DNA of 64,000 nt, from positions 248,001 to 312,000 of the forward strand of contig NZ_JARUKW010000001.1 in NCBI RefSeq assembly GCF_029688845.1, in the 5' to 3' direction. Below the pieces are notes generated by a model. That model saw only the letters and a program-made list of their open reading frames with translations, was not told where the DNA came from and did not search any database. The translations under genes and the position numbers were made by a program. Source of the stretch: Natronococcus sp. A-GB1 (GTDB lineage Archaea > Halobacteriota > Halobacteria > Halobacteriales > Natrialbaceae). This document shows, piece after piece, positions 11,706 to 16,662 of this stretch; positions within the stretch are counted from its first letter, which is position 1, and the number at the start of each line of letters is the position of its first letter.

Positions 11706-12338
11706 TCACTCGCCTTCGAGCAGACGCTCGAGCTGTGCCGGCGGGACCGCACCGCGGGCGGCGTACCCATCGTGGACGAACGTCGGGACCCCGGTGATCC
11801 CCCGCTGGTGGGCGTCGGTGAACAGGTCCTCGAGCTCCGCTCGGAGCCCGTCGTCCTCGATCGCGTCGCGGATCTCGTTGGCGGGGAGGCCGGTATCCGC
11901 CGCGAGCGAGACCAGCACGTCGGGATCGCCGATGTCCCGTTCTGCCTGCCAGAGCGCCTCGTAGATCGCCGCGTCGAACGCGGGCCACTCTTCGGGGTAG
12001 TGCTGAAAGACGTGCCACGAGGCCTGCTGTGCCGGCAGCGAGTCGACCTCGATCGCGAGCGTCTGGCTCATCTCGACGTCGTACTCCGCCTGGAGCCGAC
12101 GGACGTTCTCCCGGGCCTGCTTGAAGTAGTCGTCGTCCTTTCCATCGTCGACCGAGTGGTCGATCGAGCCGTCCTCCCGACGTTTGTCCCGCCGCAGGTC
12201 GAACGGGTGCCACTCGACCTCGAGCGGCTCTGCTCGCCGCTCGCGGTACCGCTCGAGGGACCGTTTTCCGAGGTAACAGAACGGACAGACGTAGTCGGCG
12301 TAGATCGTGAGTCGATCGGCGCCGTTCGTCGCTGACAT
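11706..12338 (-). CDS. DsbA family oxidoreductase (FrnE-like)
   Basis: The 210-aa thioredoxin-fold protein has the active site CPFC in IYADYVCPFCYLGKRSLER and the cis-Pro loop GITGVPTFVHDG. A helical insertion lies between them. No signal peptide is present, so it acts in the cytoplasm, as other FrnE/2-hydroxychromene isomerase-like members do. It probably catalyses dithiol/disulfide exchange; the partner is unknown. Its stop codon abuts that of NAD kinase. Confidence 0.9.
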   Translation of the reverse strand: MSATNGADRLTIYADYVCPFCYLGKRSLERYRERRAEPLEVEWHPFDLRRDKRREDGSIDHSVDDGKDDDYFKQARENVRRLQAEYDVEMSQTLAIEVDSLPAQQASWHVFQHYPEEWPAFDAAIYEALWQAERDIGDPDVLVSLAADTGLPANEIRDAIEDDGLRAELEDLFTDAHQRGITGVPTFVHDGYAARGAVPPAQLERLLEGE

Positions 12339-13174: not shown

Positions 13175-13280
13175 CGTGTGTCGCTCAGACCGGGAGACAG
13201 AAAAAGACTTGCTCGTTTTACCGAGGCCGAGAGCCTCCGCTCGATGAGGTTTGGCTTGGGAATCCGTCTGCGAAAAGCCC

Positions 13281-13545
13281 TTCGTAGCTCAACCTTGTGG
13301 CCAGAAGCACTTAAAGAAGGAGCGATGTTACCGGTTTTCACCGGATACCCGTAGCTACCGAAGTTTGGAACACGAGAAGCGGCGATCTCCCGTCGTAGCT
13401 CCACCTTGTGACCAGAGGGACTTAAATGGCGACCGGTACGGTCGGATTCCCGTCGAATACGTGTGGCTACCGAAGCGAGGAACGTGAGAAGCGACGACCT
13501 CTCGTCGTATCTTCATCTTGTAGCCAGAGACACTTAAAGAACGAG
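13281..13545 (-). repeat. Three tandem degenerate repeat units with TATA-like cores
   Basis: Three units with periods of 111 and 112 bp carry a shared core. Read on the minus strand the core is TTCTTTAAGT, then CTCTGG, then ACAAG and a GGAGCTACGACGGGAG-like block. About 22 nt after the TTTAAG box, two of the three units have ATG or GTG followed by codons for E/K-L/I-R-R-E. The stretch between the epsilon subunit gene and the nucleotidyltransferase gene therefore consists of these units and has no separate gene. Two more copies lie at 14571-14735. Confidence 0.7.
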
Positions 13546-13554
13546 CGACCCACA

Positions 13555-14475
13555 CTACCGACTCGCCGCGATCAGCTCGTCGATGGCGTCGTTCAGCCGT
13601 GCCCGATCGGGGCCGTCCCGAGCGTGCACTGCCGGATCGATGCGCTTCGGCGGGTGGGCGAACGCGCGACCGACGGCGTCGCCGATCCGGACGCCGCCCT
13701 CGCCGCCACGCTTTCGCTCGAGCAGGTCGCGAGCACGGTCGATCCGTTCGTCGTCGAACACCGCGGGCGCCTGCGCCTCGAGGAAGGTCTCGAACTCGAG
13801 TGCCGGCAGTTCGTGGTCGCCGCGTTCGCCCGTTGCCTTCAGGTAGTGCGCGGCCGTCGCGGCACGCATCACGGTCAGGTTCCGTTTGACCGTCGGCCGC
13901 GTCCCCGTCTCGGTGAATCGCTCGTCGTCCGCGGCGACGATTGTCGTCCCCTCGTCGGTTTCGACGAGGTACTCGTCTTCGCGGTGCTCGAGGATCGGAA
14001 AGATCTTGTCGTCGTTCCGAACCAGATGTTCTGAGAGGTACTTCCGGTAGTTGTTCGTCGCGATCCCGCGCCAGGCGTGATAGAGATCGATCGGGTTGTA
14101 CGTCCGCTCGACGTAGTCCGCAAGCGGGTCGGGATCGTAGTGCGTTCGGTACCGGTTCGGGCTCCTGAGAAGGTCGACCGCGCCGTCGTTCGAGTCGGCC
14201 AGCAGGCTCGCGAACTTGCGGACGTCCCACCCCTGGTACTCGAAGTTCCCGCGTTCCTCGAGGCACACCGCCTCGACGCCGCCGAGGTGGGCGTACCGTC
14301 TGAGGTCCGTCGGCGCGTAGACGAAGCCGACGTCGTAGTCACTGTTGGGTCCTGCCGCGCCCCAGGCGTGGCTCCCGCGGGCGACCGCCAGAACGACGGA
14401 CATCTCCTGGAAACGCTCGATCTCGTTCAGGTGTCGGTCTACCGTCTCGCGTACGTAGCGGGGGACCGATGCCAT
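13555..14475 (-). CDS. Nucleotidyltransferase, PF10127 (RlaP-like) family
   Basis: The 306-aa protein has the minimal nucleotidyltransferase active site in VARGSHAWGAAGPNSDYDVG (GS and SDxD, about residues 33-51). It also has the RlaP-type blocks GWDVRKFASLLADSND, YHAWRGIATNNYRKYL, and RPTVKRNLTVMRAATAAHYL. The family is related to DNA polymerase beta-like enzymes found with RNA-ligase systems in bacteria. No ligase is nearby, but KptA, another RNA-end enzyme, is in this window at 49.5 kb. The gene is bracketed on both sides by the same direct repeat, suggesting transfer or duplication as a cassette. Confidence 0.85.
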   Translation of the reverse strand: MASVPRYVRETVDRHLNEIERFQEMSVVLAVARGSHAWGAAGPNSDYDVGFVYAPTDLRRYAHLGGVEAVCLEERGNFEYQGWDVRKFASLLADSNDGAVDLLRSPNRYRTHYDPDPLADYVERTYNPIDLYHAWRGIATNNYRKYLSEHLVRNDDKIFPILEHREDEYLVETDEGTTIVAADDERFTETGTRPTVKRNLTVMRAATAAHYLKATGERGDHELPALEFETFLEAQAPAVFDDERIDRARDLLERKRGGEGGVRIGDAVGRAFAHPPKRIDPAVHARDGPDRARLNDAIDELIAASR

Positions 14476-14570
14476 CGCTACCGTCCGTTGCTCCCTGACG
14501 CCTCGAATCTCGAGCCCGCTCGAGACGCGCGGCTGTGGTAGAGTTGGAGACCGTAGAACCGACAGCTTCC

Positions 14571-14735
14571 CGTCATAGCTCCATCTTGTGTCCAGAGATA
14601 CTTAAAGAGCGAGCGCTCGAGGATTCCCTCGAAACGGCTGGACGGCGGACGCGGGGCTCCACGAATTTGGAGTCCTCGGAGAACGACGACCTCCCGTCGT
14701 ATCTCTACCTTGTTGCCAGAGGAACTTAAAGAACG
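14571..14735 (-). repeat. Two further copies of the promoter-like repeat
   Basis: Two units 124 bp apart have the same orientation and core as those at 13281-13545. In one, the codons after ATG read Met-Glu-Leu-stop, and in the other the start codon has become GTA, so neither opens a gene. They lie upstream of the nucleotidyltransferase start, with the TTTAAG boxes pointing toward it. The stretch 14476-14865 otherwise contains no gene. Confidence 0.65.
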
Positions 14736-14865: not shown

Positions 14866-15792
14866 ATGAGTCAGCAGCTCCCGGACGTTCAGGCGTCCTC
14901 GCCCGACGTCACCGTCGGCCTGAGCCAGGTCGGCGTCACCGGCGTCGAGAAACTCGTCAAGATCGCCCGCGAAGACAAGCGCCCGATCGTGCTCACGGCC
15001 GAGTTCGAGGTCTTCGTCGACCTCCCATCGTGGCGCAAGGGCGCGGACATGAGCCGCAACATGGAGGTCATCGACGAGATCTTAGAGGACGCGACCCGCG
15101 ACGAGGCCTACCGCGTCGAGGAGGTCTGTGGCGAGGTCGCCGAGCGCCTGCTCGGGAAACACGACTACACCTCCCGTGCGGAGGTCTCGATGGAGGCCGA
15201 GTTCATGCGCCGCGAGCAGACCCCCGCCAGCGACCGCGAGACCCAACATACTGTCGACATCATCGCGTCGGCGACGGCGACCGAGGACGGCACCCGCGAG
15301 GAGATCGGCGCGACGGTCGTCGGCATGACGGTCTGTCCCTGCTCGCAGGGGATGTCCGCCGCGCGCGCGAAACAGACGCTCGAGGATCTGGGCGTCGAGG
15401 GAGAGACGATCACGGAGTTCTTGGAACAGGTCCCCCAGCCCGGCCACTCCCAGCGCGGCCACGCGACGCTGACGGTCGAAGCTGGCGGCGACCCGGAGGT
15501 CGATCTGAACGACGTCATCGATATCGCCCGGGACTCGATGAGCGCCCGGATCTACAACCTGGCGAAGCGACCCGACGAGGACCACATGACCTACGCGGCC
15601 CACGCGGACGCGAAGTTCGTCGAGGACTGCGTGCGCTCGATGGCCGAGGGCGTCGTCGACGAGTTCGACCAGCTCCCGGACGACGCCGTGGTAACGATGA
15701 AACAATCGAACGACGAGTCGATCCACCAGCACAACGCCCACGCCGAGCGCGTCGTCGAGATGGACCAGCTCCGATCGGAAGTCGACGACTAG
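14866..15792 (+). CDS. mptA: GTP cyclohydrolase MptA (type IV)
   Basis: The 308-aa enzyme converts GTP to 7,8-dihydroneopterin 2',3'-cyclic phosphate, the first step of archaeal pterin cofactor synthesis. It belongs to the Fe(II)-dependent MptA/FolE2 group. Conserved features are [35 protein letters not shown] with the metal-ligand cysteines, and [15 protein letters not shown]. In haloarchaea it supports folate-type cofactors. It ends in a four-base overlap of stop codons with the convergent TrmB gene. Confidence 0.94.
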
Positions 15793-16592
15793 AAGACGAG
15801 CGGCTCCGCTTCCTCCCACCGCGGCGCGAACTCCCCGTGGACGTTCGCGGCGAACTCCGGATCCTTCAGGTCGATCATGCCGAACGCGTCGCCCGACGAA
15901 AGCGGATTCGGAACCTGGATGCAGATCTCGACGCCGTCGATGATGTTGAACGATCCCGTGACGTCGTCGTTCGTCCGGACGTGGAAGTCATCGCGGCTCT
16001 GTAACGCCGTCCGGTAGCGCTCGCCCACGTTCGCCGAGAGCGAGTTGACCATCTTTCGGGTCATCAGGATATCGACCGACACCCCCCGGTCCAGGGCGTC
16101 CTCGAGCTGGGCGAGGACGTCCTCGCTGACGGCCTGCATATCCCGTTCGGGGACGGGATCGGCGGCGACCATCACGATGTGGTCGTCAGCAGCCGCCAGC
16201 CGCTCGAGCAGGAGGTCGATCGTCTCCTCGGGACCGACGGCGGCGGTCCAGAACTGCTCCTCGACGGGGTCGGCTGCGTCGAGTTCGTCGGCGAGGTCGT
16301 CGACGATCGACTCGTACTGGTCGACCTTCTCGTCGAGTTCGCGCTTCTTGTCCTCGAGCAGGCGGTCCAGCGCGGTCGAGGGCTCGACCGCGACGTACTT
16401 TTTCGGCCGGCTCGCGGTCTGACTGCGGACGAGGTTGTACTGTTCGATGCTGTTGAGGACGTCGTAGATTCGCCCCATCGGCACGTCGCTCGCGCGCGAC
16501 AACTCCTTGGCCGTTGTGGGGCCCGTATTCAGCAGTGCTCGATACGCACGAGCTTCGTACTCGGAGAGCCCGAGATCCCTGAGACTGGCCAT
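15789..16592 (-). CDS. TrmB family transcriptional regulator
   Basis: The 267-aa protein has the TrmB winged helix at residues 1-70 ([20 protein letters not shown], then [20 protein letters not shown]). A coiled coil follows (about 85-115), and then a ligand-type C-terminal domain with [11 protein letters not shown] and [16 protein letters not shown]. TrmB proteins usually control sugar or central-metabolism genes. The ATG at 16592 ([11 protein letters not shown]) is used in preference to one five codons upstream, which does not extend the wing. Its target is not evident from neighbours. Confidence 0.86.
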
Positions 16593-16662
16593 ACCGTAGA
16601 CGCTCACCCGAGAAACAAAAACGCTGTGGTGGTTTGCCTCCGATTTGCCCTCGGGGGGCTCA

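Follow-up and report, generated by a model that had tools for sequence, protein, structure and literature searches.

The epsilon subunit of RNA polymerase has been known since the 1980s. Epsilon is encoded by rpoeps (OE_1279R), which is present in Hbt. salinarum and some other haloarchaea, and its co-purification with RNA polymerase has been published for Hbt. salinarum only (PMC8305020). Native templates are efficiently transcribed by polymerase that contains epsilon but not by polymerase that lacks it, and the relevance of the subunit has been called enigmatic (PMC8305020). The literature that we searched, which covered few subscription papers, contained no report of promoters specific to epsilon, of a cognate element or of a regulon.

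Repeated promoters have been described in a halovirus. The class I intergenic repeats of HF2 are repeated extended promoters with a CTTTAAGT TATA box; transcription begins about 26 nt downstream of the first TATA-box position, a conserved start-site block (gamma) was essential in scanning mutagenesis, and activity in Hfx. volcanii requires no other viral gene (PMC8707807). The repeats analyzed here, as putative extended promoters, resemble them in being repeated and in having the same CTTTAAGT box and a conserved block at the presumed start region. By contrast, the HF2 repeats are viral, differ after TTTAAGT (CATTAGCTCCCGTCTATTAGAGTGAGG) and lack TTCTGG..ACAAGG, and sequence comparison showed that the HF2 gamma motif CGTCTNNTAGAG is absent from our element. 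We analyzed a 64-kb window (the whole stretch of DNA under study, C1:248001-312000 of a 4.5-Mb genome) and conclude that its tandem repeats very probably belong to a promoter class that is peculiar to epsilon-bearing haloarchaea.

Results

Five copies of one element at the epsilon locus

The minus strand of the window between 13278 and 14730 contains five direct copies of one unit, all in the same orientation and spaced by 111, 112, 1068 and 124 nt (Table 1). Scored with their own 45-nt position weight matrix, the copies reached 65-71 bits, compared with 2.3 bits for the best remaining site in the 64 kb, and the reversed pattern used as a control had no match in any genome tested, including that of the window. 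This confirms the preliminary description of five direct copies on both sides of the PF10127 gene with periods of 111, 112 and 124, each having a TTTAAG box and, 22 nt past it, a codon position that is ATG in two copies, GTG in one and GTT or GTA in the others. Its reading of the following codons as E/K-L/I-R-R-E, with a stop in one copy, was also right; the stop is in copy 4. Three copies are located between the PF10127 gene and the epsilon gene, so that the first array precedes epsilon, with 141 nt from the TATA box of copy 1 to the epsilon ATG; the other two lie upstream of the PF10127 gene. Four further copies are present in the same genome (C19:20760+, C19:28302-, C55:35609- and C55:35758-). 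A 16S operon, sought for comparison with the rRNA promoter, had no match in this assembly. Farther along the window, a gene for a TrmB-type regulator with DUF7436 (15789-16607, minus strand) is convergent with that for the GTP cyclohydrolase MptA (14866-15792).

Table 1. Features of the window around the repeats, here listed as probable promoter elements. For each copy, the first T of TTTAAGT and the codon 22 nt past TTTAAG are given.
Feature	Position	Strand	Remarks
DsbA/FrnE-like thioredoxin	11706..12338	-	PF01323 E 2e-29; next gene after epsilon
RNA polymerase subunit epsilon, 257 aa	12401..13174	-	named after annotated plasmid-borne homologs; proposed to recognize the element and to regulate its own gene
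Promoter element copy 1	13278..13315	-	TTTAAGTGCTTCTGGCCACAAGGTTGAGCTACGAAGGG; epsilon-proximal; variant 3' end ...ACGAAGGGCTTTTCGC; first T 13315; GTT
Promoter element copy 2	13389..13426	-	first T 13426; GTG
Promoter element copy 3	13501..13538	-	17 nt beyond PF10127 gene stop; first T 13538; ATG
PF10127 RlaP-type nucleotidyltransferase, 306 aa	13555..14475	-	Pfam E 4e-26; second candidate target of the arrays
Promoter element copy 4	14569..14606	-	131 nt upstream of PF10127 gene start; first T 14606; ATG
Promoter element copy 5	14693..14730	-	first T 14730; GTA

The product of the epsilon gene had no match in Pfam and NCBIfam scans. Its relatives are about 50-97% identical overall: near-identical loci belong to Natronococcus (epsilon identity up to 97%), a Halobacterium relative is 70% identical, and plasmid-borne haloarchaeal homologs, annotated as 'DNA-directed RNA polymerase subunit epsilon', are 55-62% identical over 82-91% of the length. 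No epsilon relative was found in viral contigs.

Anatomy of the element

Alignment of 340 distinct copies, with the first T of TTTAAGT as position 1, defined a core-promoter-like element, TTTAAGTNNYTCTGGNNACAAGGTNGAGNTAYGACGGG, with most of its conservation confined to about 38 nt. Positions 1-36 hold about 57 bits of information, mostly 1-2 bits per conserved column, and positions 37-38 about 1.3 bits, after which conservation rapidly fades; nothing beyond a weak C-rich/TTC signal is seen 5' of the element. TTTAAGT is conserved to at least 95% at each position, and the layout, in which the TATA-type box is followed by a conserved block that extends to about +8 of the presumed start, is always fixed. 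Copies at epsilon loci are mostly located 105-290 nt upstream of the gene start. Considering that the HF2 promoter repeat starts 26 nt after the start of its TATA box, transcription from the element would start near position 27-31. The predicted placing would put the TATA box at about -30, TTCTGG at about -20, ACAAGG at about -11 and AG.TAYGA around the start, matching the coverage of the pre-initiation complex, whose expected footprint, from about -30 to +8, would correspond to the conserved stretch of about 38 nt. The earlier suggestion of a promoter is thus well supported by the TATA-type box, the block to about +8, the fixed layout and the position in front of genes, and we consider it very probable that the repeats are promoters. 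Epsilon-adjacent copies, in the window (13278-13300) and elsewhere, often end in ACGAAGGGCTTTTCGC and not in A(C/T)GACGGGAAGTCGTC; both endings hold a short inverted repeat.

The preliminary description had also proposed a leaderless promoter together with a MELRRE-type gene start that was duplicated and then decayed, as ATG or GTG and E-L-R-R-E in some of the five copies would suggest. In the 340 copies, however, the supposed start codon at positions 23-25 shows no conservation, GTA and GTG being the usual readings, and one common variant has CTATGA, which places a stop in frame; at the nucleotide level the element hardly varies. Because the start codon is not conserved and the common form meets TGA at once, we rejected the coding reading; no MELRRE-type gene is needed, and such an origin is extremely improbable.

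Another proposal was an RNA element, in which the block would be the 5' end of a folding transcript, either a leader or a small RNA. Many copies have an inverted repeat, ACGAC-GGGAA-GTCGT, after position 31, the summed pairing of this hairpin is 3.08 compared with 2.74 (maximum 2.82) in shuffles, and in some Natronococcus-group copies similarity decays slowly downstream. The hairpin signal is nevertheless weak: its outer pairs form in 31-53% of the copies, and element types II and III mostly have no hairpin. Moreover, the TATA box and the stretch from -20 to +1, which would not be transcribed, hold most of the information, and an Rfam search of the window returned tRNAs only, with no structured-RNA family at the element. 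We therefore regard an RNA element as improbable.

CRISPR, REP and insertion elements were also considered and dismissed, since ends, spacing and length do not match. A BLAST search of the unit against phages gave chance matches only. Two viral contigs contained the exact short pattern; the one examined was A+T-rich, showed no haloarchaeal signs and was taken as a chance match.

The element accompanies epsilon across genomes

The distribution of the element was surveyed in 146 genomes sampled from the order, with epsilon called at scores above 190 bits. Epsilon was present in 70 of these genomes. The type I/II pattern occurred in 61 genomes, each an epsilon carrier; eight of the remaining nine epsilon genomes had a type III or variant pattern, and the ninth (G125) had an upstream cis copy that narrowly missed both patterns. 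Some form of the element is thus present in all genomes of this order-level sample that encode full-length epsilon, whereas neither pattern was found in any of the 76 epsilon-free genomes. Among 114 epsilon genes examined, a copy was located within 450 nt upstream of 105 (median distance from TATA box to gene start, about 180 nt) and was absent upstream of nine. Genomes with and without epsilon coexist within six families and within one genus; when epsilon labels were permuted between genera of the same family and between genomes of the two mixed genera, the observed association corresponded to about 1 in 200,000 arrangements.

Cis linkage accounts for part of this co-occurrence and does so trivially, so that copies unlinked to epsilon provide a better test. 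All of the unlinked copies found lie in epsilon genomes. They agree with the copies linked to epsilon in the same genus at 25.2 of 31 positions, compared with 20.2 +/- 1.04 when genera were shuffled (p = 5e-5, nine genera). Gene conversion between copies could be another source of such concerted change.

Genes adjoining the element

In 40 of 45 named loci, nearly all from Natrialbaceae, the PF10127 gene lies upstream of epsilon with the arrays included. This conserved synteny, together with the end of conservation about 8 nt past the presumed start, speaks against the mobile cassette that had been suggested by the bracketing of the gene. An MntA-type antitoxin was considered as the identity of the PF10127 gene product and rejected (NCBIfam score of 19 bits against a cut-off of 60). 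In Halobacterium, the DsbA/FrnE gene replaces the PF10127 gene upstream of epsilon, and the Halobacterium relatives of the DsbA/FrnE-like gene have element copies of their own upstream. Other candidate targets were named by reading their translations alone. Among them are menA-like prenyltransferase genes: in ten genomes, all from one family, a copy precedes the gene by 95-160 nt. In the window's genus, three genomes have a copy before hisG, and SfsA-like, GNAT-like and MFS-like genes are single cases. For some solitary copies, no downstream gene is obvious.

An inert or selfish repeat, dispersed through recombination involving the epsilon region, would be consistent with the copy number, which ranges from 1 to about 15 per genome, with the varying size of the tandem arrays and with copies near TnpB or without a clear gene. 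However, the copies have no conserved ends or length outside the 38-nt footprint, only this short block is kept across all epsilon-bearing families, the Natrialbaceae epsilon-locus copies are oriented with the genes, and the menA copies of ten genomes all lie 95-160 nt ahead of the gene. Linked as it is to epsilon and to the regions in front of genes, the element is not scattered at random, as the preliminary description would expect of an inert repeat; we regard this explanation as quite improbable, marginally more so than an RNA element.

Several copies have unusual positions. In several genomes of family f17 (L236-L246, L251-L255), copies lie beyond the 3' end of epsilon, antisense into it; epsilon may therefore have promoters of its own at both ends, on opposite strands. 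Three type III copies (L231:649+, L233:612+ and L230:627+) are located 50-170 nt beyond stop codons, antisense into gyrA-like genes in two genomes and an orc1/cdc6-like gene. Antisense control, or else hitchhiking, may be behind these antisense copies. At L044 and L227, solitary copies lie by the 3' end of TnpB-like genes and face them. The copies L198-L201, also from f17 genomes, share a downstream stretch, GAGGAAGATTTT, most without a clear gene nearby; this stretch is possibly a small transcript.

Element types and epsilon paralogs

The type III element, ACAAGGGTTCGTAGTGA, occurs only with one epsilon clade. One Natrialbaceae genome (G018) has a type III element and an epsilon that groups with the type III clade, in a tree with moderate support at the inner forks, while its relatives have type I. 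Weaker relatives of epsilon (paralogs, about 25-38% identity) are encoded on other contigs, some of them small. Three of these paralogs are preceded, at 150-211 nt, by the same scaffold with other 3' halves (..ACAACGTATCTATATGAAGGG, ..ACAAGGTATCTATATGAACG and ..ACAATACAGGTAAATGAAGGG), and the exact TATCTATATGAA form was found in two of the 146 genomes, only before those paralogs. No recognisable copy was found at most other paralog loci examined. The element shares its 5' half across the whole epsilon family; its 3' half varies with epsilon type and paralog and is probably the specificity determinant. One group of paralogs (L166-L170, L270-L277), of about 200-370 aa, is unnamed in Pfam, is in part plasmid-borne or on small contigs, and also occurs in some genomes without epsilon.

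A probable TFB-like core in epsilon

AlphaFold models of epsilon, built from shallow alignments, were of low confidence (pLDDT 57 and 68). The best 22 and 25 matches in two structure comparisons were all TFIIB, Brf or archaeal TFB and covered the first cyclin repeat (about 90-130 residues) with Z scores of about 5-7, a range that the comparison tool rates as common; Foldseek alone returned no significant match for the models. Sequence and profile searches of Pfam and the PDB with epsilon itself gave no credible match, and one paralog matched Pfam TFIIB with an E value of 0.025, below the cut-off. Comparison of full-length epsilon with TFB by hhalign yielded nothing in a shallow run and, in a deeper run, a high score with a meaningless alignment that was discarded in favor of a core-to-core profile alignment with shuffles. 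In the latter, LCNALDLTPWQRDLALGVMDEIDLTEFGSQRAIPKVALVVI paired gap-free with the TFB repeat and scored 24.2; none of 100 column shuffles exceeded 18.7. On the evidence of the models and profiles, the core of epsilon is likely a TFB-like cyclin domain. Epsilon has a single cysteine (C104) in 257 aa and thus no N-terminal zinc ribbon with two CxxC pairs, and the Pfam and NCBIfam scans showed no sigma family that would indicate sigma regions 2 and 4.

Discussion

Considering the element and its distribution together, we propose, with a probability of about 0.6, that epsilon itself reads the element promoters; direct binding and transcription are what we infer from sequence comparisons. TBP would bind TTTAAGT, and epsilon, as a TFIIB/cyclin-fold factor acting like a sigma factor or an alternative TFB, would read the fixed block TTCTGG..ACAAGG.....TAYGA, from about -20 to +8, which would include the melting and start region. 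Epsilon-containing polymerase would in this way be steered to the element promoters, including those of epsilon, and because of this the arrays would form an autoregulatory loop. The start site, and activation rather than repression by epsilon, are likewise what we infer. The resulting regulon would be small and lineage-specific, comprising the PF10127 gene, DsbA/FrnE, menA, hisG and others.

An ordinary TATA promoter combined with the operator of another DNA-binding regulator, with epsilon merely one of the regulated genes, could also account for much of this. TTCTGG and ACAAGG could be half-sites, repeated operators are frequent in autoregulated operons, and the association data also fit a regulator that is always co-inherited with epsilon. 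By contrast, conservation from the TATA box to about +8 with fixed spacing is as expected for an initiation factor, three epsilon paralogs have their own version of the element, and no constant regulator gene was seen beside epsilon in the loci examined, where PF10127 and DsbA/FrnE interchange. We consider such a regulator unlikely, though clearly less so than the other alternatives.

If epsilon is the recognition factor, it would be like TFIIB/TFB and the haloarchaeal TFB paralogs as a promoter-specific initiation factor, and the weak profile and fold evidence suggests a similar cyclin-type core. Unlike these factors, epsilon has no N-terminal cysteine zinc ribbon, contains one recognisable repeat and was isolated as a polymerase subunit. 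The proposed parallel with bacterial sigma factors lies in a polymerase-bound specificity subunit, an element that reaches into the melting region, and autoregulation; in contrast to sigma, epsilon showed no sequence relation to that family and would act, if at all, beside TBP. We give even odds to the broader proposal that epsilon and its paralogs make up an unrecognised archaeal family of initiation factors which act like sigma, arose from a TFB-type cyclin domain, recognise one version each of the scaffold (-30 to +8) and are driven by their own tandem promoters. Such a family would explain why epsilon-containing polymerase is the form active on native templates. The proposed cognate promoter class, the candidate regulon and the paralog variants make the function of epsilon directly testable in Halobacterium salinarum and, if the proposal is true, promoter choice in archaea would involve a specificity subunit bound to the polymerase, in addition to the known TFB and TBP paralogs.
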